This document shows positions 19,639-44,763 of a DNA stretch of 64,000 bases, one piece after another (position 1 is the stretch's first letter; each line of letters begins with the position of its first letter). Made by a program: the position numbers and the translations under genes. Location: the IMG/VR virus record IMGVR_UViG_3300005976_000005, positions 62,001-126,000 of that record; one strand, given 5' to 3'. The stretch is from a virus. The notes beneath the pieces are model-generated. The model did not search any database. It had not been told where the DNA came from and worked only from the letters and a program-made list of their open reading frames with translations.

Positions 19639-20898
19639 TTATTCTACGAAGAAAGGTTTAAAATCCATCCAAAGATTTAGTTTACCTTCTTCCTTAATTG
19701 GTATCTTGAGTCTTAGAAACTCAACATCATTGTTTCCATAGAATACAAGCGAGAAAGAATTTGTTTTCTCTGAAATTTTTTCCATTCTCATATAGAACTT
19801 GTCATTGAAATTATCTACCAGCTTTTTGAACCCTTTACTTGTTTTTGTTGAAATAACCCTTGTATTGTTAGATTGAGTTACAGCTAAATAAATTTCTTCA
19901 CTACCAAGACCTATAGAATTAACAAAGCTTTCGTTTATTCTATCACCATTATCTTTATATACTTCGTTAAAAATATCTATAACGAAGTCTCTAATTATCT
20001 GGTATCTGGATTTACCACCTTCTTCCATTGGCTGGTTCATAAATTCGGTTGCTAATGTGCTATAATCAGGAACTTTTTTCTTTTTAAGACTTCTTTTCAG
20101 TTTACTAAACTCCGAAGCTAACTTAGATATTTCTGGAATTCTTCTAATAACATCTTTTGCTTCTGTAGACAATTCATCATCCTCTATCTTATCCAACAAA
20201 TTTTTCACAAACTTAGCTCCAGTACCTTCAACATTAGGAAACATAACTTTCTTTATGAAGCTAATAAATGTAGAATTTACGAGGTTGATACTAAAACCAC
20301 TGTATGCTTTCAACGAAGCAAAAATCTCCTGAACAACCTTCTGCTCTGACATCTTCGTAACAATCAAGTCAGCAGTTGTCTCAAACTTCCTAGACTCACC
20401 AGCAAGCTCAATATCAAAAAGACAAAGAGCACTATCTTCCGATGATGAAATTTCTGTAAAGATTTTCTCAGCCAATGCCTCACCTTGTTGCTCTGATGTT
20501 CTTATCTTTCCACTTAGATTTTTCTGTTCTTTCTCCCCCCACTTAACATTCTCAATTTTTTCTGTTCTATACCTATTCATTTCATTGTTAAGTTCTTCAA
20601 GTAGATTTTTACTCTTGATTTTAAACCCACTATCCAACAAGTTCTTACATAGATTATACGCAGTTACTCTTTCCACATAATAACCTATTCTCGACTTGAG
20701 GTCCGACTTTCTGTCTTCACCATTTGATTCTTTCATGTTATTGGATACTCCTAAACTAATTCTTTTGGTTTGACCAAAATTCAACATAGAAAATAGCTTC
20801 TTTATACTATTAACAATTTTTCTAAATGAACTCTTGATCCATTGAGTTATGTTAGGTATAGTGATGTTCTCATGAAAGTAAAAATCATCGAACCTCAT
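19639..20898 (-). CDS. unknown protein with head-type leader
   Basis: 419 residues from the ATG at 20898, which has GGAG eight bases upstream (the ATG at 20904 has only two). Leader MRFDDFYFHE|NITI. The body is mostly helical with LKSRIGYYVERVTAYNLCKN and CLFDIELAGESRKFETTADL. The last phrase has spaced D/E residues that recall a PD-(D/E)xK nuclease core, a weak guess. The gene is translationally coupled to the GP88-like gene upstream. Confidence 0.6.
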   Translation of the reverse strand: MRFDDFYFHENITIPNITQWIKSSFRKIVNSIKKLFSMLNFGQTKRISLGVSNNMKESNGEDRKSDLKSRIGYYVERVTAYNLCKNLLDSGFKIKSKNLLEELNNEMNRYRTEKIENVKWGEKEQKNLSGKIRTSEQQGEALAEKIFTEISSSEDSALCLFDIELAGESRKFETTADLIVTKMSEQKVVQEIFASLKAYSGFSINLVNSTFISFIKKVMFPNVEGTGAKFVKNLLDKIEDDELSTEAKDVIRRIPEISKLASEFSKLKRSLKKKKVPDYSTLATEFMNQPMEEGGKSRYQIIRDFVIDIFNEVYKDNGDRINESFVNSIGLGSEEIYLAVTQSNNTRVISTKTSKGFKKLVDNFNDKFYMRMEKISEKTNSFSLVFYGNNDVEFLRLKIPIKEEGKLNLWMDFKPFFVE

Positions 20899-20900
20899 TT

Positions 20901-22433
20901 TCATATCTCCTTTTTGAGTCTTCTAAAAACTCCAGCATGTTGTTTAGCAACTGCCTTTGAAACTTTTGGCGTTTCTCCCTTCTTAGCCATCTCTATTGAC
21001 TTGTTCAAAGCATTTAGGAGAGAAGACCACTTTTTAGCAGCAGGAGCCTGTCCCTGCGCTCTTGCTCTCTCAAGTTCTGCTTCAAACTTTCCAGTCAAAG
21101 CATCCACACTCTTTACCAAACCTTCAGTACTATCCTGTTGAGTAATCTCTATATTCGCGTCACCATTCTGAATTCTTCCAACTTCAACATACTTCTCAAT
21201 TGCGTTTATGAGATTTTCTGATTGACCCTTTGATTTGAATATATCAGCAAATAAGTCTATCCTATCCTGACGAATAGGAACGAGTCTCTGATACTGCTTC
21301 TTCAAGTTATCAGGAACAAGATTCATTGCCATCTGTCCCTTCTCCTTTGGATTTCCTTCACCCGCCATTATCTCAGCAAACTCTGGCATCTCTATAACAG
21401 TTGTAAGAATTTTATTCAACTGAACTTGATATTCTGTTCCAGAACCGTGAATTGGAAGAAAGATATGCTTCTTCGTCTTTTCCTTACAATATCTACATTT
21501 TCTACAATCACCCAAACAATGAACTCCCTTGTTCACAGTAACTCCATTGAATTCATGTAGCTCGTTTCTTTCTACCAAATCCATGACCTCGTTGAACTCA
21601 TTGAGTTCAAGAGGAACAAAAGCATTGTCCAACATGAATCCAGAACCATTGACACAAATGTTTGGTCCCAAGTCTCCAATGTTGAGGTCTGTTCTGTGGG
21701 TGTATGTGTAGAGCTTCAAGTCAGAACCCATACTTATAAGTTCCTTTCCAACTTGTCTGAGCTTTTCAACATCATCAACACCAGCCATCTGCGCTTTCTT
21801 CTCTTCTGGAACTCTTGCCAAAAGCTCTGGGTCAGATGGAAGATTTCTAAATTCACCAGCTTCATTGATTCTGATGTACTTTATTCTTGGCATTACCTCT
21901 GTAATATTGACAAGACCCTGAGCAATTCCTCTTGGTGTCAAACAAGCCCATTGTTCTTCGTGTCTGATATTTTTCTCCATTGATCCTTTCCACTGCTTCT
22001 CAAATCTCAAAGCATAACACTGACCATTAGGACCAAGTTTACAAGTACCGAGAATAGCGGACATACAGTTACCGGCAGTTGACATATTGAGAAGAACAGT
22101 ATCACCACCAATCTTCGCATTACCAGCGGCAACTTCAAAATCTCTGACTTCACCAGTCTCCGGGTCTGTTACCTTTGTTCTTGTTCTGTTCTCTTTCTTA
22201 CTCTTTTTTTCTTGCTCGTTCAAACTGTCATAATGCTCATATGCTTCTTTCAGTGACTTGAATGTCTTCCCATCTCTGGAAAGTCTTATTACATCATGTT
22301 CTACTAATTGAGGAAGATACTTCAAAGGAATGCCAATTTCCATTTCACCCCTCTCATTGATCGAACAGAGGTCCAAATCAATTGGCATCATGAAAGTATT
22401 ATCTTCAAAATAGTGGTCAATGAATCTGTCCAT
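20901..22433 (-). CDS. GP88-like Cys-rich protein with head-type leader
   Basis: 510 residues. Start MDRFIDHYFED is leader-like, though the E site is less clear. The core reads LLNMSTAGNCMSAILGTCKL then GPNGQCYALRFEKQW, followed by KYIRINEAGEFRNL, LKLYTYTHRTDL and CLGDCRKCRYCKEK. This matches the gene-product-88 family found in phages and plasmids, whose Cys clusters probably bind iron-sulfur or zinc; the reaction is unknown. The C-terminal third is helical (GQSENLINAIEKYVEVGRI) and may be a separate domain. It is an odd protein to find in a putative packaged set. Confidence 0.65.
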   Translation of the reverse strand: MDRFIDHYFEDNTFMMPIDLDLCSINERGEMEIGIPLKYLPQLVEHDVIRLSRDGKTFKSLKEAYEHYDSLNEQEKKSKKENRTRTKVTDPETGEVRDFEVAAGNAKIGGDTVLLNMSTAGNCMSAILGTCKLGPNGQCYALRFEKQWKGSMEKNIRHEEQWACLTPRGIAQGLVNITEVMPRIKYIRINEAGEFRNLPSDPELLARVPEEKKAQMAGVDDVEKLRQVGKELISMGSDLKLYTYTHRTDLNIGDLGPNICVNGSGFMLDNAFVPLELNEFNEVMDLVERNELHEFNGVTVNKGVHCLGDCRKCRYCKEKTKKHIFLPIHGSGTEYQVQLNKILTTVIEMPEFAEIMAGEGNPKEKGQMAMNLVPDNLKKQYQRLVPIRQDRIDLFADIFKSKGQSENLINAIEKYVEVGRIQNGDANIEITQQDSTEGLVKSVDALTGKFEAELERARAQGQAPAAKKWSSLLNALNKSIEMAKKGETPKVSKAVAKQHAGVFRRLKKEI

Positions 22434-22617: not shown

Positions 22618-23148
22618 TTAAAATCCCAATTGCTTTAACTGTTTAATTGTATCATCTGCGTTTTGATGGTGTATACCAATACCATCCCCAAGATTTATCC
22701 AGTCATTGATTTTCTTATCATAATCATCTATGAGTATACTTTCTGTATCTGCGTGCTCATATTTATCCTTAGAAAAGATATAGTGCACATCTTCTCCAAG
22801 TTCTCTCTCAATCCAGATTTTTTTACCTTCTTTACAGAACTTGCTTCTTGTGGGAGTTGTTAATATCGTAGGATTATATTTTTTGATGTAGTTCCAAAGT
22901 TTCTTACCGTCAGGTGTCCAGGGCATCTCACTCCAGAATTCAAGCTTACCGTTTTCTGCTATGACTTTCCAAAGCTCTTCTCTTCCATACTTATCTTCGA
23001 ACTTATGCCCTTCCAATCCCTTGGTTACTTCACTTCCAAGATTTTCAAATGCTTTTTCCCACCAACAGATTACACCATCCATATCACAAAAGATTTTCAA
23101 TTGACTTTCCTCATTCTCATACAAATAAAGCATTTCAAGAATTCCCAT
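22618..23148 (-). CDS. HAD-family 5'-nucleotidase-like protein with head-type leader
   Basis: 176 residues from the ATG at 23148 (AAGGAGCGAATTG upstream). The leader MGILEMLYLYE|NEESQ is followed directly by KIFCDMDGVICWW, the D-x-D-G catalytic loop of HAD phosphatases, in the form typical of 5'(3')-deoxyribonucleotidases. TTPTRSKFCKEGK supplies motif II/III residues and ESILIDDYDKKI the final acidic pair. It probably dephosphorylates nucleotides. The leader and the enzyme core abut with almost no linker. Confidence 0.75.
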   Translation of the reverse strand: MGILEMLYLYENEESQLKIFCDMDGVICWWEKAFENLGSEVTKGLEGHKFEDKYGREELWKVIAENGKLEFWSEMPWTPDGKKLWNYIKKYNPTILTTPTRSKFCKEGKKIWIERELGEDVHYIFSKDKYEHADTESILIDDYDKKINDWINLGDGIGIHHQNADDTIKQLKQLGF

Positions 23149-23237
23149 CAATTCGCTCCTTGGTTTCTATACATTCTCATTTTATTGGTTATTTCTTCTT
23201 CTGTATTAGCAAGGAAAGTATCATTTGTGTCAGGCAT
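23148..23237 (-). CDS. possible 29-aa ORF
   Basis: MPDTNDTFLANTEEEITNKM... overlaps the next gene's start codon (TGATGG). Charged, no motif, weak ribosome site. It fills the gap between the tmRNA-side gene and the HAD gene and may serve only for translational coupling. Confidence 0.3.
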   Translation of the reverse strand: MPDTNDTFLANTEEEITNKMRMYRNQGAN

Positions 23238-23415: not shown

Positions 23416-23780
23416 TGGTGGAGCTGACGGGGACTTGAACCCCGTGTCCTGAATACGTCGCTGAAAACCTCGTTCACATGGTTAGTCTCTTTCTAATCAG
23501 TCATCATAATCGTAAAAAAGACAAAGACAATTATGATGACCCAACAAAGTCAATTCGGTCCCCTTCTCTATGTTGGCTTCGGTTGTCCTATCCTTCTGTC
23601 TTTTCCCTAATCCATCTTAGAAGGAGTCAGATGTTTCGGGCGCTACTTTAATTAAGCAGCTTGTGCGTAAGCGTAATCTTCTGCGCTTGTCTTTCGGTCA
23701 GCTTTTTTTCGTGGCCAACTGACCAACCACGCCATGCAGCTTTTCAACTAACACACCCAGTCGAAAACCATTACAGCCCC
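23416..23780 (-). ncRNA. ssrA: transfer-messenger RNA (tmRNA)
   Basis: 365 bases. The 5' end GGGGCUG pairs with CAGCUCC ahead of ACCA at the 3' end, forming the tRNA-like acceptor; the CCA is encoded. A tRNA-type T arm (GGGGTTCAAGTCCCC) lies near the 3' end. The tag frame starts at GCA (23684-23682) and reads AEDYAYAQAA followed by TAA TTA A (stop at 23654-23652). GC-rich pairing segments downstream (for example TGACCGAAAG upstream and CATCATAATTGTC...ACGATTATGATG) fit pseudoknots and helix 2. tmRNA rescues stalled ribosomes and tags the peptide for proteolysis. The gene starts 7 bases after the stop of 23787-24173, so it is cotranscribed and processed. No smpB is visible in the window. Confidence 0.95.
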
Positions 23781-38192: not shown

Positions 38193-38387
38193 TTAAGACA
38201 TTATTCTTTCTATTTTATCACTAATATCTTTAACAATATTGTTAGCCATTCTACCAATAGCTTCGTCTGAAAATCTCTGATCTACTCCACTACTCATCAT
38301 ATAGTTAATAATTGAATTAGTCAACTCATCAACATCAGTTTCTACATTTCCACCAATATTTTCTTTTAGATATTTATTGAAACTCAT
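38193..38387 (-). CDS. small helical protein with head-type leader
   Basis: 64 residues, leader MSFNKYLKE|NIG, very close to the T4 MKTYQEFIAE pattern. The rest is acidic and helical (ELTNSIINYMMSSGVD). No family recognised. Its ATG overlaps the stop of the ligase-like gene. Confidence 0.65.
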   Translation of the reverse strand: MSFNKYLKENIGGNVETDVDELTNSIINYMMSSGVDQRFSDEAIGRMANNIVKDISDKIERIMS

Positions 38388-39365
38388 TTCTTGTACTCCT
38401 GATTGTAAGCTTTCTTTGCTTCCTTAAAACGGTCACTAACTACTTTGAACATAACATTGTTTGATAACTCAAATACAAGACCTTCGTACTCATCACCAAA
38501 CTTACCTGACTTTATTAGACTACCAAGCTTCTTTGAGAAGTCCTTCTGCATCTGGAGCAATTCTTGTTTGATTCTTCTCTTTTGTTCCATAGCGGGTTTC
38601 TTTCTGCTTGGATTCATAATGATTTCATCAATCTTCTGTCCATATTCCTTCTCAATGTTATTTATAAATTTCTCAACTCTCTGAATTTCAGGAGTCAAAT
38701 CAACTTCATTGAAATCCGAAATATCACCATAGTCAAATCTTATTCCATTGGTGCTCAAATTCTTCAAGTCTTCTTTTATCTTCTGGACCTTTTCCTGCTC
38801 TAAAGGTCTTCCCTTTCCATCCGTCGCATTTATAACAACGAATGTTGCCCACTCACCAAGCTTTTCCTTTTTGTACCAAGTAGCAACAAACTTTACAAGC
38901 GAGCTATCTTCTTCCGAACCTTTTCCAATTGGAAGATAAAAAGCCTCTGTTTGGATTTTTATTCCACTTGGTGTGTTTATTGACTTGAGATATTTCTGAA
39001 GCTTATCATAATTCTTCAATCTTTTCAGAATATCCTCATAACCTTCTGTAACTGGGTCTGTCTGTCCCCTCTTACCAATAGTAAACTGTCTGAATTTTCC
39101 CTCGTCAAATATAGGTCCCGAATGCGATGACTCAACAAAGAACTTACCGTCTTTATCAACTCCAAAAAAAAAAACGAAAACCGTCCATTTTTTCACTCAA
39201 ATTAGTATTCACTCTATTTAATTTTCCTTCATTTGAAGATTTAATAAATCTAATAATATCTAAAAAATCTTTAGGTTTCATACTATACTTATCATGATAA
39301 ATATGTTGGATTCCAGTTCTCGGTGAAGATGAAACTTCACTAAAATAATGTTTGATAAAATTCAT
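38384..39365 (-). CDS. ligase-like nucleotidyltransferase, frame broken at a T11 tract
   Basis: From the ATG at 39365 the frame reads MNFIKHYFSE|VSSS..., then SMKPKDFLDIIRFIK and LSEKMDGFRFFF, where an 11-T tract shifts it to a stop. Removing one T continues as GVDKDGKFFVESSHSGPIF to the stop at 38384, 326 residues in all. KMDG (Lys59) is a covalent-nucleotidyltransferase motif I; IQTEAFYLP, YEGLVFEL and MFKVV fit motifs III to V, as in ATP-dependent DNA/RNA ligases. It may be a packaged ligase. Slippage, mutation or an assembly error explains the tract. It overlaps the inserted endonuclease by 26 bases. Confidence 0.7.
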
Positions 39366-40458
39366 TTTCCAAGACCTCATTAATATTTTCATTAAAATCA
39401 ATTCTCAATAATTTTATATTATTATCCTTACAATATTTATTCTTAATTTCATCTTTAACTTTCTGATTTAAAAAATCTTCTTTTGTCGTTTGATATTTTC
39501 CAATAAATGAAAAAGGTTTAAAATGTTGTTCTCCATCATATTCAATACAAGTATTATATTTTGGAAGATAAAAGTCAAACGGCAATGGTAATTTATACCT
39601 ACAATCTTTAAATCGTTTTTGACAAACAAACTTAATATTGTTTTTAATTAGCCAACTCTCTATTTTTCTTTCACCGTTTGAGTTTTGACATTTTGGACAA
39701 CCTCTAGCATTATTCTTGTGATTATTAGGAGTTTGCCAAAATTCACCATGTTTCGGACAAATGATACAAACTTTCGTAAAAATATCCTTAAATTGAACTT
39801 TACTATAATCGTATTTATTATTATGAACCATATTACAAATATTTATAAAATCTTCATTTGTTAAATGTTGTCCGGCACATTTTGGACAACCTTTACCAGC
39901 TAAATGATTGTCCGGTATTTGTTCAAAAACTCCATGTTCTTTACAAATAATTTTGATTGATAAATTTGTTCTTTTGTAATTAACTAAAGAGTAGTCATAT
40001 TTATTTTTATGTACCTTTTGAAATTTCTCTAACATTTCATCCAATGAATTTCTATGACTATTTGCTCTTTTGATTTTTCCACAAAAAGGACATCCTATTC
40101 CAGAAACATGAGAAGATGGTATTTGTTCAAAAACTCCATGTTCTTTACAAATAATTTTTATTTTTAAATTATTCTTTAATTTTTCAAAGTTAACTAAAGA
40201 ATATTCATATTTGTTCTTATGTGTTTTTAAAACTTTCCTTACAAAATCTTCTATGCTATTTATTCTACCGGCACATTTTGGACATCCTTGACCTTTCCAA
40301 TGTTTTTGAGGTGATTGTTCAAAAACTCCATGTTCTTTACAAATAATTTTTACCTTAGAACGATTATTTTTATATTTAACTAAAGAATATTCATATAAAT
40401 CTCTATGAACTTTTATAGCTTTTTGAATAAAAATATCGTTTGTAATAATTTTTGGCAT
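39340..40458 (-). CDS. zinc-ribbon homing endonuclease (EDxHD/Vsr-like nuclease)
   Basis: 372 residues. Four tandem repeats of about 60-65 residues, each H-x-N-K-Y-x-Y-S...KIICKEHGVFEQ...GCPKC, bind zinc and probably DNA. The C-terminal domain, LPFDFYLPKYNTCIEYDGEQH then KEDFLNQKVKDEIKNKYC and IKLLRIDF, is a Vsr/PD-(D/E)xK-type nuclease of the freestanding homing kind. It is AT-richer than its neighbours. It lies between a relic (40474-40603) and an intact paralogous module (39365 on), and its end overlaps the next gene's start by 26 bases, which suggests a mobile insertion. Confidence 0.85.
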   Translation of the reverse strand: MPKIITNDIFIQKAIKVHRDLYEYSLVKYKNNRSKVKIICKEHGVFEQSPQKHWKGQGCPKCAGRINSIEDFVRKVLKTHKNKYEYSLVNFEKLKNNLKIKIICKEHGVFEQIPSSHVSGIGCPFCGKIKRANSHRNSLDEMLEKFQKVHKNKYDYSLVNYKRTNLSIKIICKEHGVFEQIPDNHLAGKGCPKCAGQHLTNEDFINICNMVHNNKYDYSKVQFKDIFTKVCIICPKHGEFWQTPNNHKNNARGCPKCQNSNGERKIESWLIKNNIKFVCQKRFKDCRYKLPLPFDFYLPKYNTCIEYDGEQHFKPFSFIGKYQTTKEDFLNQKVKDEIKNKYCKDNNIKLLRIDFNENINEVLENEFYQTLF

Positions 40459-40607: not shown

Positions 40608-40883
40608 CTATGCTGGACGCTTACCAAGGTCTGGTTTTGTTTTGCTTGCCAATGTAGAAAGTTCATTTCTAACTCTACCAAAAGCCTTATCTGCCGCCTG
40701 GTTGAAAGATTGATAAGCATAATCTATAGCGAGTACATCATCAACTTTGGTAGAATCCATATACTCCCAAAAAGCACTGTACGCTTTGTCTACAGCTCTC
40801 TCTACTGCTTCTTGAAAAGAATATGGTCTAACCTCTATACCTTTGTTAAATTCTTCTGATAGATACTTCTGATATTCTTTCAT
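40608..40883 (-). CDS. small helical protein with head-type leader
   Basis: 91 residues, leader MKEYQKYLSE|EFN. Helical body with repeated AxxxAF pattern (SFQEAVERAVDKAYSAFWEY, SFNQAADKAFGRVR). No family recognised. Four-base overlap with the fused adenylyltransferase gene upstream. Confidence 0.6.
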   Translation of the reverse strand: MKEYQKYLSEEFNKGIEVRPYSFQEAVERAVDKAYSAFWEYMDSTKVDDVLAIDYAYQSFNQAADKAFGRVRNELSTLASKTKPDLGKRPA

Positions 40884-42742
40884 TTTTTAATCCCCTTCTT
40901 TCTTTTTAAGTCTTGATAGAATGGTAACACGAAATCTCTCAATTGCTCATCACTCATTTTGAATTGAGGAAAGACTTTCGCAAACTCGTCATAAGCAGCT
41001 TTCTTTGCCTCAAAGTCATTCATTTGTATTCCGTCTTTCCAAGCATCTGGTCCTTGTTCTATTTCCTGTCCCTTTCTCCATATAATGTCCATAAAGTTAT
41101 TATATACCATCTTTATAGTGTCGTTGTCAAGATATTTTTTCATTAACTTCAAAATACCTACAAACGAATGGAAGTCTTTCTTTTCTACTGGTGTAGGCTT
41201 CTTCTCAAAAACAAAAGCAAAAATATCTTCAATATCTCTTTCGTAGTTTGAAACTTTCGTTGGAATTTCCTTATATATTGGCTTTCCTTCAGGTGTTCTT
41301 TGAATCTCACCCTTATCATCAAGGACTGGCTCAAAAGCAACTCTCATTCCCTTATCAACAGAGAACTTTCTCATTGCTGGGTTGTCATATTTAGTGCTTG
41401 TTGAAATCTTACCAGTTGGTGTTTGAATAGCAATATCTCCAAGTCTTTGCTTTGCTGATACAAGCGATCTCATAAGAAGCTTTGAGAAAGCTCCCTTTAC
41501 CTTATTCTTTATGTCCTGCCAAGAACTGTAGTGAGCAAATGTTGAAAATTCGTTTGGTACACCGTCCTCAAAAAATGTTGGCTCAAAGTCAATCTGAATA
41601 TTCTTCACTAAGTCGGGAACAACAGATGAAACGAATATTGTGTTTTCCTGTGTTTGTGATTTACCACCTTTACCTAAGAAAGTCATCTTACCAAACTTCT
41701 GTCCTTCATTATCCTTGAGGAATTCCTTAAGAAGAGGTCTTAGCTCTTCTGGATATTGTAAATCCATATCTCCAACTGCCTTTTTATGCTTACTGAATTC
41801 ATCATAAGGCTTGGAAAAGAACAATCTTGTAGAACCAGAGAATAGTTTTCCACTCTTAACATTCTCTTCAAATTTTGGGAACAATGGTTTGTTGTATTTC
41901 TTCTCGAATTCTTTATTGAATGCTCTTAGTGCGTCGACTATTTCCTTCTGTAATTCTCTAAACTGTTTTGCGGAAATCTTATCCATCGGAATTTTTTCTG
42001 CTGGAACTTCTTTACCATCTTTAGTGATAACCTTTACATTACCACCTTCTTTCAAATAGTAAAATTTATCAAATCTCATTGTATTATGGCTCTCTATAAT
42101 ATTGTTCTTTTTTAGCATATCAATCATCATATCATATACTGACTCTTCATAACCAGTAAGTCTCAAAAACTCTTCCTTGTTTTTATCAAGGAGAGCCCTT
42201 CTAACTTTTGTACCAGAAGTATCTTCTTCTCCACGACTTTCAAGAAAGAAGTATTCACCCTTTCCGAAATCAGAATCAGATGGATCAGTAGTTCCTTCGT
42301 TCTTTGGATCATACTCAACGAAATATCTCTGGAAGTCCTTTATTCTGTCTGGACCTACTATGAATACTGGTCTATCAACACCAGCCTGAACTACTCTTGT
42401 AAACATTCTAATTGGAATTGAGGAGTCCACACGAATAAATCTTGCTCCGGTAGCCTCCTCAATTATCTTCTTTTTCTGTTCATCAGTAAAAATGTCGACC
42501 TTTGGGTCGACTTTCTTTCTGGTTGGAGAAACGATTACAACGTCATCAAAATGTTGCTTAGCAAAATCAACAAGCCTACCGTGCCCCTTTTTTCCAGTCC
42601 AGGGAGCAAATTTCCCAAAGATGACAGCGGTAGGCTTCTCATTCTTGTCAATTACATAACGATTTAGTTCAACCGTTTTAGATGGGTCGTTCCTATCTGG
42701 AACTTCAACTGTTATCATTCCTTCCAGAATTGTAGAAAACAT
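40880..42742 (-). CDS. fusion: NMNAT-like adenylyltransferase plus nucleotidyltransferase, with an internal leader
   Basis: 620 residues from the ATG at 42742 (GGAG seven bases upstream), leader MFSTILE|GMI. Residues about 35-215 hold a cytidylyltransferase-like fold: TAVIFGKFAPWTGKKGHGRL (GxFxPxxxGH type) and TSGTKVRRALLDKN (SxTxxR), most like NMN adenylyltransferases. Then a second leader, MRFDKFYYLKE|GGN, lies inside the protein (near residue 223) and begins another domain with GSTRLFF...VGDMDLQYPEEL, a G-S...D-x-D nucleotidyltransferase site. This looks like two cargo genes fused, with a protease site left between them. Confidence 0.7.
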   Translation of the reverse strand: MFSTILEGMITVEVPDRNDPSKTVELNRYVIDKNEKPTAVIFGKFAPWTGKKGHGRLVDFAKQHFDDVVIVSPTRKKVDPKVDIFTDEQKKKIIEEATGARFIRVDSSIPIRMFTRVVQAGVDRPVFIVGPDRIKDFQRYFVEYDPKNEGTTDPSDSDFGKGEYFFLESRGEEDTSGTKVRRALLDKNKEEFLRLTGYEESVYDMMIDMLKKNNIIESHNTMRFDKFYYLKEGGNVKVITKDGKEVPAEKIPMDKISAKQFRELQKEIVDALRAFNKEFEKKYNKPLFPKFEENVKSGKLFSGSTRLFFSKPYDEFSKHKKAVGDMDLQYPEELRPLLKEFLKDNEGQKFGKMTFLGKGGKSQTQENTIFVSSVVPDLVKNIQIDFEPTFFEDGVPNEFSTFAHYSSWQDIKNKVKGAFSKLLMRSLVSAKQRLGDIAIQTPTGKISTSTKYDNPAMRKFSVDKGMRVAFEPVLDDKGEIQRTPEGKPIYKEIPTKVSNYERDIEDIFAFVFEKKPTPVEKKDFHSFVGILKLMKKYLDNDTIKMVYNNFMDIIWRKGQEIEQGPDAWKDGIQMNDFEAKKAAYDEFAKVFPQFKMSDEQLRDFVLPFYQDLKRKKGIKK

Positions 42743-42753
42743 TCCCATTCTCC

Positions 42754-44763
42754 TTATCCTCTTGCTCCACCCTTCTTGTATTCAGATGGTATTTGAGGAG
42801 ATGGAACTTTCTCAATCTTCTCCTTTGGCTTTGAAGGAGACTTTGTGTAGTTTCCAGATGGTGCTGCCTTCTTGTCACTCTTTGGAACTTTACCAGCAGG
42901 TTCCATCTTATGCTTTGGCTTAGATGGAGACTTTGTGTAGTTTCCAGATGGTGCTGGTTTAGATGGAGACTTTGGTGCCGATGGAACCTTCTCAATCTTT
43001 TCCTTTGGTTTCGAAGGATTCGATGTGAAGCCGTCAGCACTATGGTCAGATGCGTTGTAAATTTCTTCCTCGTCCATCTCCATATATCTGTTTGCTAACT
43101 TAGCAAAACTCAATCCTTCTTCTGCCATTTCTTCCATTTCTTCTTCACTTCTATTCAGTGCGTTCTTCCACTGACTCTTGAATTTAGATGAGTAATCGTC
43201 TTCACTTCTACTCTTATTTCTCTTCAACGCATCCTTCCACTGACTCTTGAATTTAGATTGGTAGTCCATTTCTTCTTCACCATCTATAGCGACACTTATA
43301 GCAGCGTGGATCACATCTATTTCTTCGTCGGAAAGTCTTTCTCCAGAATGAAGCTTATCCATTACGTTGTCAAGAACCGCTGTGTCAGATTTTCCTTCTT
43401 TAGCGGCGGCGATAGCTCCGGCAATTATATCTCTTTCTGGTTCTGAAAGATTTTCACCGTCACGAACCTTTGCCATAACATCTTCCAAGCCACCGTCGTC
43501 TTCCATTTCTTCTTCAGCATATTCCATTTCTTCTTCAGCATATTCCATCTCTTCTTCAGAAGTTCCTGGTCCAATAACCTCAAGCTGTTCAATAGGTGCC
43601 TCATACTCCTCACCATCCTGGTCAGTAACATAAGCAATATCACCTTCAAATCCAGCAACCATACAAGGCATTCCCTTGTAAAGAACTTCCTGACCATTCT
43701 TCAATGGGCAACCCATTTCTTCTTCACTGTATTTCATACCACACTCTTCTTCAGCATCATATTCCATTTCTTCAACTTCATCAATAGTAAACTTAGACTT
43801 CTTCTTGTTGATATCCACACCAACAATCTCTTTATCTTTGGTAACTGAAACAACATTATACCAATCTTCGTTGACTTTTACAAGTTTACCAACAAGCTTA
43901 TTGAGGTCAAGGCTTTCTAAGTCATACATAGAAGAACCAGCATAACCTCTCTTTCTCATTGTCATTTCTTCTTCTGCTTCTTCATCATCACCACCAAGAT
44001 CAGCGATGTCTTCCCAGTTTATAGCATCAGCATCTTCAGGTTCTTCTCCTGCGTCTTCTGACTCTTCACCAGCATCTTCAGGTTCTTCTCCTGCGTCTTC
44101 TGGCTCTTCACCAGCATCCTCAGGTTCTTCTTCCTCTGCTTCTCTAATGCTCTTGGATTCTGGATACATCTCTTCTTCAGCTTCTCCACCTTCTTCTGGC
44201 TCTTCCATCTGAACTGTAAATCCTTTGAAAAGAGTCTCAAGAGAATCTGTAAATGCCTTTAATTCTTCTTCACTATCAAATTCGTGTTCTGACTTTTCAA
44301 GACCAGTTCCATCAGAAGGCTCTACCATTACCTTCATTCCTTCAACAGAAACCTTTACAATCTTTTCTTCCTCTGGTTCTTCTGTTTCCTCTTCAACAAC
44401 GTCCTTTCTCGGTCTTCCTCTTTTCTTACCAGTAGATTCCATACCAAGACCAGACGATCTGTTTTTATCAACGTCATTATTGATAGTGATTCTGATTTCA
44501 CCTTCATCAAGTGAGTTGACCTTCTCAACAACGTAATCCATATTGTTCTTAAGGAATTCAACGTCAATTGTTGAAGGAGCAATTCTTTCATCTACGAATT
44601 CATTCTGAATTCTGTGAAGTGCTGTCTTCTTGTCTGAGTAATCATCATCAAAAGCTTCTCTGACGATGGATACAACCTTATCCCATCTTTCCTTAATTAT
44701 CTTCTCAGAAGCGGAAACATCCTCATTGAAGTTTTCTTTAAGATACTTTGTAAATTCTAACAT
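42754..44763 (-). CDS. long acidic AT-hook protein with head-type leader
   Basis: 669 residues, leader MLEFTKYLKE|NFN. A helical N-part is followed by GKKRGRPRKD, a classical AT-hook. Then come Glu-rich low-complexity regions with tandem repeats (EEPEDAG five times, EEEMEYA three times), two copies of SKFKSQWK(D/N)AL, and a Pro/Lys/Ser-rich basic tail with repeats of SPSKPKEKIEKVPS. Several [LI]xE sites lie inside. It resembles a phage internal head or scaffold-type protein: acidic centre, DNA-binding hook, basic tail. No family named. Repeats make copy-number changes likely. Confidence 0.65.
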   Translation of the reverse strand: MLEFTKYLKENFNEDVSASEKIIKERWDKVVSIVREAFDDDYSDKKTALHRIQNEFVDERIAPSTIDVEFLKNNMDYVVEKVNSLDEGEIRITINNDVDKNRSSGLGMESTGKKRGRPRKDVVEEETEEPEEEKIVKVSVEGMKVMVEPSDGTGLEKSEHEFDSEEELKAFTDSLETLFKGFTVQMEEPEEGGEAEEEMYPESKSIREAEEEEPEDAGEEPEDAGEEPEDAGEESEDAGEEPEDADAINWEDIADLGGDDEEAEEEMTMRKRGYAGSSMYDLESLDLNKLVGKLVKVNEDWYNVVSVTKDKEIVGVDINKKKSKFTIDEVEEMEYDAEEECGMKYSEEEMGCPLKNGQEVLYKGMPCMVAGFEGDIAYVTDQDGEEYEAPIEQLEVIGPGTSEEEMEYAEEEMEYAEEEMEDDGGLEDVMAKVRDGENLSEPERDIIAGAIAAAKEGKSDTAVLDNVMDKLHSGERLSDEEIDVIHAAISVAIDGEEEMDYQSKFKSQWKDALKRNKSRSEDDYSSKFKSQWKNALNRSEEEMEEMAEEGLSFAKLANRYMEMDEEEIYNASDHSADGFTSNPSKPKEKIEKVPSAPKSPSKPAPSGNYTKSPSKPKHKMEPAGKVPKSDKKAAPSGNYTKSPSKPKEKIEKVPSPQIPSEYKKGGARG

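Follow-up and report, generated by a model that had tools for sequence, protein, structure and literature searches.

A leader-like element between two enzyme domains of a phage fusion protein, with features of a prohead protease site

The window analysed here, a stretch of 64,000 nucleotides, comprises positions 62001-126000 of a 149-kb IMG/VR virus record (IMGVR_UViG_3300005976_000005). It contains a fusion gene (40880..42748) that lies, like all of its features and immediate neighbours given below, on the minus strand, and that encodes 622 amino acids from its first ATG or 620 from the better-supported ATG at 42742. The latter opens the sequence MFSTILEG and has the best-placed Shine-Dalgarno sequence (AAGGAG, 42750..42755; -9.3 kcal/mol, versus -5.8 for the first ATG and -3.3 for the third, which opens MITVEV). 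Since three further IMG/VR contigs (L005-L007) carry exactly this open reading frame and junction, an assembly artefact of a single contig is excluded. The preliminary description of this DNA had proposed, without giving a strand, a 620-residue protein with a leader between an NMNAT-like domain and a nucleotidyltransferase domain; this architecture is confirmed, and both domain labels hold, the first at the level of the superfamily.

The N-terminal domain (residues 11-215, 42104..42718), which carries the motifs FGKFAPWTGKKGH and SGTKVR, belongs to the HIGH superfamily of nucleotidylyltransferases (NMNAT/PPAT-like) by profile (Pfam CTP_transf_like, PF01467, E 7.5e-7, 29.9 bits against a cut-off of 21) and by fold, with Z of 12-13 to PPAT, NadM and NadD in VIA-align. 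PPAT (5h16; Z 12.9, rmsd 3.3 A over 150 residues) and NadM (2r5w; Z 12.7, rmsd 3.2 A over 160) score similarly, and the first His of HxGH is replaced (FAPWTGKKGH). The C-terminal domain begins with GGN (residues 235-622, 40883..42046), includes the catalytic motif GDMD (residues 326-329, 41762..41773), and matches phrog_19290 (E 9e-49), the first profile position of which aligns to residue 224; GGN, GS, GDxD and QxDxE are invariant in the family alignment. The best Foldseek matches are all to Pol lambda and beta (E ~3e-4), and VIA gives middling Z of 7-7.6 over ~180 residues to DNA polymerases lambda, mu and beta. Because no match at the sequence level was found in Pfam or the PDB, this nucleotidyltransferase (NTase) is placed in the DNA polymerase X/Pol beta group at the superfamily level only. 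The AlphaFold model of the whole protein has a mean pLDDT of 89.5, and its only segments below 50 are residues 1-7 and 220-233, which correspond to two leaders discussed below; a model of the NTase alone (pLDDT 92.8, pTM 0.89) is low only in its first 10 residues, again the leader; this model leaves out L035, a distant row that is partly misaligned in one of the alignments. Both leaders would thus be exposed and open to cutting, disorder by itself being no proof of cutting.

Between the two domains stands MRFDKFYYLKE (residues 224-234, 42047..42079), which follows the CTP_transf_like domain and precedes the domain with the motifs GS...GDMD...QIDFE; the predicted cut, marked here and below by an arrow, falls between residues 234 and 235 (MRFDKFYYLKE↓GGN, residues 224-237, 42079..42038). 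Such leaders open no fewer than 18 further genes of the record, mostly clustered at 12349-45334 of the window (MSFNKYLKE, MKEYKKYLQE, MRFEAFYIRE, MRFDDFYFHE, MKFTEYYFRE and others), making a short aromatic leader common to unrelated proteins of this genome. Loose regular expressions for the leader are not significant alone (about 2.3-8.5 internal matches expected by shuffling), for which reason a PSSM and homologues were used. The PSSM was derived from 18 other N-terminal leaders of the record, with the candidate left out, and scored at all positions of 188 minus-strand ORFs. The internal site scores 19.8 and ranks ninth overall, the best other internal site reaching 12.5, and 19.8 was attained in 0 of 300 residue shuffles. 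LKE↓G also shows the L/I-x-E pattern at P3-P1, followed by a small residue. The T4 capsid targeting sequence (CTS) is located at the N-terminus and residues 224-234 are internal, a true N-terminus being found there only in unfused relatives; because of its internal position the element is called leader-like rather than a CTS proper.

By the ORF list and the PSSM, leaders also begin the next downstream gene (40608..40883, MKEYQKYLSE↓E) and the gene immediately upstream (42754..44763, MLEFTKYLKE↓N). A KxDG ligase-like gene that belongs to this set of enzymes as a partner (38384..39401, minus strand) has a leader of its own (MNFIKHYFSE↓VSSS). The ligase assignment is based on the KxDG, EG and K motifs, because no significant Pfam match was found and PDB matches were weak (RNA ligase 1, E 0.09). 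This gene is frameshifted (39156-39401 and 38384-39196, minus strand) at a run of 11 T just after its KMDG motif; the run also occurs in L005 and L006, the copy in a related contig (L018) is uninterrupted, and error, inactivation and slippage are candidate causes. Directly before the ligase-like gene and overlapping its start is a homing-endonuclease-like gene with repeated Cys-rich motifs (39340-40458, minus strand); L018 has the same insertion, and similar proteins are encoded close to the record's sheath and terminase. Elsewhere in the region of leader-bearing genes are a phage tmRNA gene (23416-23780, minus strand) with the tag peptide AEDYAYAQAA and a 5'-3' deoxyribonucleotidase homologue (22618-23151, minus strand; phrog_2643, E 3.6e-26) with a leader-like start, MGILEMLYLYE↓N.

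Comparison of the whole protein with phages by tblastn gave matches to the NTase half only, beginning at residues 221-223 in Campylobacter phages; nothing was found among phages for the NMNAT-like half, the relatives of which all come from IMG/VR. The standalone NTase of Campylobacter phage CP220 begins MKLSELMFILE↓GGN, that of CP21 is alike, and two from IMG/VR begin MRSFKDFYMTLNE↓GGN (L020) and MIKFDNFYCLIE↓GGN (L021). That distantly related phages begin the homologous gene at exactly the same Met is, on the sequences compared, the decisive evidence for reading the element as a leader. In Vibrio phage pv27 and Xanthomonas phage X1 the NTase opens instead with MGGN, preceded by a purine-rich, Shine-Dalgarno-like stretch. 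A search of IMG/VR with the NTase domain alignment returned 69 loci; among non-redundant starts, 8 have MGGN, and in 32 GGN is preceded by other residues; of these 32, 30 have Glu at P1 and all have Leu, Ile or Val at P3, whereas 12 kinds of residue occur at P2. Because other homologues start with MGGN, the leader is an optional module that ends precisely at the natural N-terminus of the NTase domain. Its presence or absence changes about six times on the NTase tree, at least three times on starred branches, the exact number being unsure because the branches are long. The earlier proposal that the leader is a mobile, functional tag draws its support from this family survey and not from the single fusion. 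MGGN proteins should lose their Met and leader-bearing forms their leader by protease, so that both would arrive at the same GGN terminus. Two further arrangements were seen: in L019 (4001-4110) a second MGGN, resembling a start, comes after the leader (MDFFKFYYKNHHLIE↓GGNVSLRKEKE-MGGNVVV), as if the leader had been placed before an MGGN gene, and in L041 and L046 two MGGN-type NTase genes stand in tandem at one locus.

The invariance of GGN even in proteins that lack a leader raises the question of whether EGGN is instead a structural feature of the NTase fold, its E and L being conserved for folding and forming no protease site. This is hardly credible, since the leaderless homologues carry M, not LxE, before GGN, and the segment is predicted to be disordered.

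Related phages with two separate genes, the existence of which was put forward earlier as a check, were found in L020, in L019 and in Xanthomonas phage X1, where the genes form one cluster. In L020 the stop codon of the NMNAT-like gene overlaps the ATG of the NTase gene (ATGA), which has the Shine-Dalgarno sequence AAGGAGG; in L019 the two genes are adjacent and separate, with TAG-AA between them. With homologues that begin at this point and separate genes in relatives, the idea that a gene fusion captured a leader in its entirety is well supported. Since the Met at 42079 is the exact ancestral start, translation might still begin there and give, in addition to the fusion, an NTase of its own with an ordinary leader at its N-terminus. 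The Shine-Dalgarno energy at this Met is -2.9 (-0.9 in L018), near the median of -1.9 for internal ATGs, versus -9.3 and -5.9 for the split NTase genes of L020 and L019. From this comparison, a small sample of two fused lineages and two separate-gene relatives, the internal ribosome-binding site appears to have been lost in both fused lineages. The argument is not absolute, as the Shine-Dalgarno sequence is weak (-2.4) in one genuine leader gene of the record too (MKFTEYYFRE); nevertheless, an internal start alongside the fusion seems very unlikely, and an internal start as the sole product, which had been named as a refutation of the proposal, is disfavoured because the signal at the internal Met is weak relative to that of the split relatives and no better than at ordinary internal ATGs.

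The second fused lineage, L018, is 77% identical and keeps MRFDNFYYLTE↓GGN, with 9 of 11 leader residues identical. Joining two adjacent genes requires no function of the leader, and the cutting itself is inferred, so the element could be a fusion relic, fossilised when the stop codon was lost and now serving as a linker in a protein that stays whole, whether packaged by way of MFSTILE or left in the cytoplasm. Against this, the leader of L018 was kept amid several synonymous codon changes while the preceding linker changed in length and sequence; synonymous divergence between the window and L018 is saturated, for which reason no dN/dS is given.

The fate of the same kind of site in other fusions bears on this question as well. 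Relatives repeatedly combine domains of the NMNAT-like, NTase and KxDG ligase-like types, separate or joined in varying orders: as separate genes in L020 and within four genes in X1; as NMNAT-ligase fusions (L035, L109 and L111); as NTase-ligase-NMNAT tri-fusions (e.g. L042, L043, L045, L047, L048, L057, L058 and L065); and as ligase-NMNAT-NTase-NTase chains (e.g. L066, L071, L074, L076, L077 and L083). An NTase is also fused to an unknown domain in L036 and to a CCA-adding-enzyme-like domain (GGAVRDEILGKQSNDIDL) in L109 (2054-3976) and L111 (2060-3976). Two large fusion alignments were filtered for columns with an invariant E, Leu, Ile or Phe at P3 throughout, and four or more different residues at P2. 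Four of the 39 invariant-E columns pass, and all of them mark the beginning of an NTase or a ligase domain: L[LDVIF]E↓GGN, L[DAKQ]E↓, [LF][NDGE]E↓GG and L[MVLITN]E↓SG. One of these is the boundary between the N-terminal leader and the NTase of the tri-fusion, and the other three are true internal junctions. The NMNAT-ligase junctions YKLLE↓A (L035) and EKYLNE↓G (L109) are leader-like, without Met. The junction of ligase and NMNAT in the tri-fusions has no conserved site, as a fusion relic would allow; the persistence of LxE sites with free P2 at the starts of NTase and ligase domains speaks against one, and we consider a relic rather unlikely. The same LxE pattern ahead of ligase domains, which have no GGN, is a further argument against a purely structural EGGN.

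The protein may have a second leader at its N-terminus, MFSTILE↓G (42722..42742), for which alignment, pLDDT and the fit to L/I-x-E give moderate support. The NMNAT-like half has about nine extra N-terminal residues compared with the genes of L020, L019 and L035, which begin with MP and to which this comparison is limited, the start of L018 falling off its contig; the segment does not rank among the 40 best-scoring sites under the leader PSSM of this genome. It was possibly gained by the fusion or its ancestor. The internal leader, for its part, would after cutting form the C-terminus of the NMNAT-like half (...MRFDKFYYLKE) and might act mainly as a tag there, as a variant of cargo processing that does not exclude it. 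The separate NMNAT-like gene of L019 (3309-3995) ends in ESLDFNKFYFVE and a stop codon, as a cut product would; leader-like tails also end the ligase of L020 (5128-6126, SLAEYLYMLEEF) and the product of 19639-20904 of the window (MDFKPFFVE), and T4 Alt is likewise processed C-terminally (PMC9026906). These few examples were noticed post hoc, without a chance estimate, and a candidate leader already stands at the N-terminus of the NMNAT-like half in the window, so that a C-terminal tag as the main role is distinctly doubtful. The tails of L019, L020 and the window are possible targeting or processing tags in their own right, as in Alt.

Neither Peptidase_S77 (PF03420) nor Gp23 (PF07068) was found in the 149-kb record, which ends just past the apparent terminase region, nor was the protease found in contigs that overlap the end of the record (L100-L102), which likewise stop near the terminase. 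A gp21-type protease (PF03420) is present in 17 of the 27 records of relatives, including every searched record above 120 kb, with or without a leader, and all larger relatives examined have both this protease and a gp23 MCP. The N-terminal regions of the relatives' MCPs contain motifs of the type LxE↓G/A/S, such as RLVNE↓GT in pv27 and ELFE↓GS in the record of L020, placed by analogy with T4 gp23. The 11 bands sequenced from a CP220 virion gel include no entry for CPT_0100, as the NTase homologue would presumably be named (PMC2853527), which counts against packaging.

The protein is probably a head-cargo polyprotein that a gp21-type prohead protease cuts between its enzymes in the head, a reading drawn from the leader, its match to the gene starts of relatives, its retention in two fused lineages, the internal ribosome-binding site that these have lost, and a signature of the protease type where NTase and ligase domains begin in other fusions. 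An ancestral adjacent pair, as in L020, would have consisted of an NMNAT-like gene followed by a Pol X-like NTase gene with a capsid-targeting leader, and loss of the intervening stop codon would have fused them in frame with the NTase leader retained inside. The leader or leaders may draw the precursor into the prohead core, where the gp21-type protease would cut after LKE (residue 234) and probably, at residue 9, after ILE; the products, an NMNAT-like fragment and an NTase with GGN at its N-terminus, would both be carried in the head and enter the next host with the DNA. Because their partners are ligase-like and Pol X/CCA-type enzymes, the best guess at their task is the repair of RNA or DNA ends, presumably early in infection; the NMNAT-like part could possibly act in NAD-related counter-defence (PMC9503650). 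More broadly, we lean towards the reading that T4-like phages build cargo polyproteins of NMNAT-, Pol X-, ligase- and CCA-like enzymes in varying orders, with sites kept at the starts of NTases and ligases, so that the prohead protease doubles as a polyprotein processor; the free GGN terminus of the NTase would then be reached by three routes, removal of Met from MGGN, removal of a leader, and internal cutting of a fusion.

If this is true, prohead proteases release separate injected enzymes from fused precursors, beyond trimming scaffolds and leaders; the sequence rule (P3 and P1 conserved, P2 free, at domain starts) could help to identify injected enzymes in phages yet to be characterised; and the repeated occurrence of these enzymes together suggests a kit, delivered by the head, for nucleic-acid-end repair or counter-defence. 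Since cultured Campylobacter phages (with the leader) and Vibrio phages (leaderless) have standalone homologues, packaging is testable.

In T4, gp21 cuts after L/I-X-E, and in IPIII positions 4 and 7 matter most for targeting, and 8 and 10 for processing; Asp in place of Glu at P1 is reported to stop processing while leaving targeting intact (PMC9026906). The P3 and P1 residues of the 32 leader-bearing NTase starts follow this L/I-X-E rule. The leaders described here resemble the T4 CTSs of IPI, IPII, IPIII and Alt, which are cut by gp21 and have about 10 residues ending in L/I-x-E (PMC9026906); several leaders of this genome, such as MKEYKKYLQE and MSRFTKFLEE, have aromatic residues at positions 4 and 7 and L and E at positions 8 and 10, the positions found to be important in IPIII. 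T4 CTSs act at the N-terminus (Alt being cut C-terminally as well), whereas one copy here is internal, between two enzyme domains, where a targeting role would be conjectural, which counts against the cargo reading. The T4 prohead core proteins gp22, gp67 and gp68 are likewise cut internally, by a protease of this kind, as the head matures (PMC9026906), but these are degraded to small pieces that mostly leave, whereas the site here separates two folded enzyme domains. The NTases of phrog_19290 (the Campylobacter phage CP220/CP21 group and others) are homologous over almost their entire length, with a leader at the start, but they have a single domain and no annotated function, and no description of their leader was found. 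Polyvalent proteins are multi-enzyme chains thought to be delivered with DNA and in some cases separated by proteolysis (Iyer et al. 2017, PMC5512222); they are freed by embedded peptidase domains, whereas the sites here match a separate prohead protease. No peptidase domain was found in the fusion protein by Pfam and PHROG scans, and not every polyvalent protein need have one. Internal gp21 cuts (gp22, gp67 and gp68) and the two-ended processing of Alt (PMC9026906) are thus already known, as are multi-enzyme injected proteins (PMC5512222). In the literature outside subscription journals no description was found of internal prohead-protease sites that free enzyme cargo, and a CTS-like element kept between two enzymes, with repeated sites of this kind in cargo fusions, appears to be new. 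If true, such processing resembles that of animal-virus polyproteins, but with the protease tied to head assembly and the enzymes freed only inside the particle.
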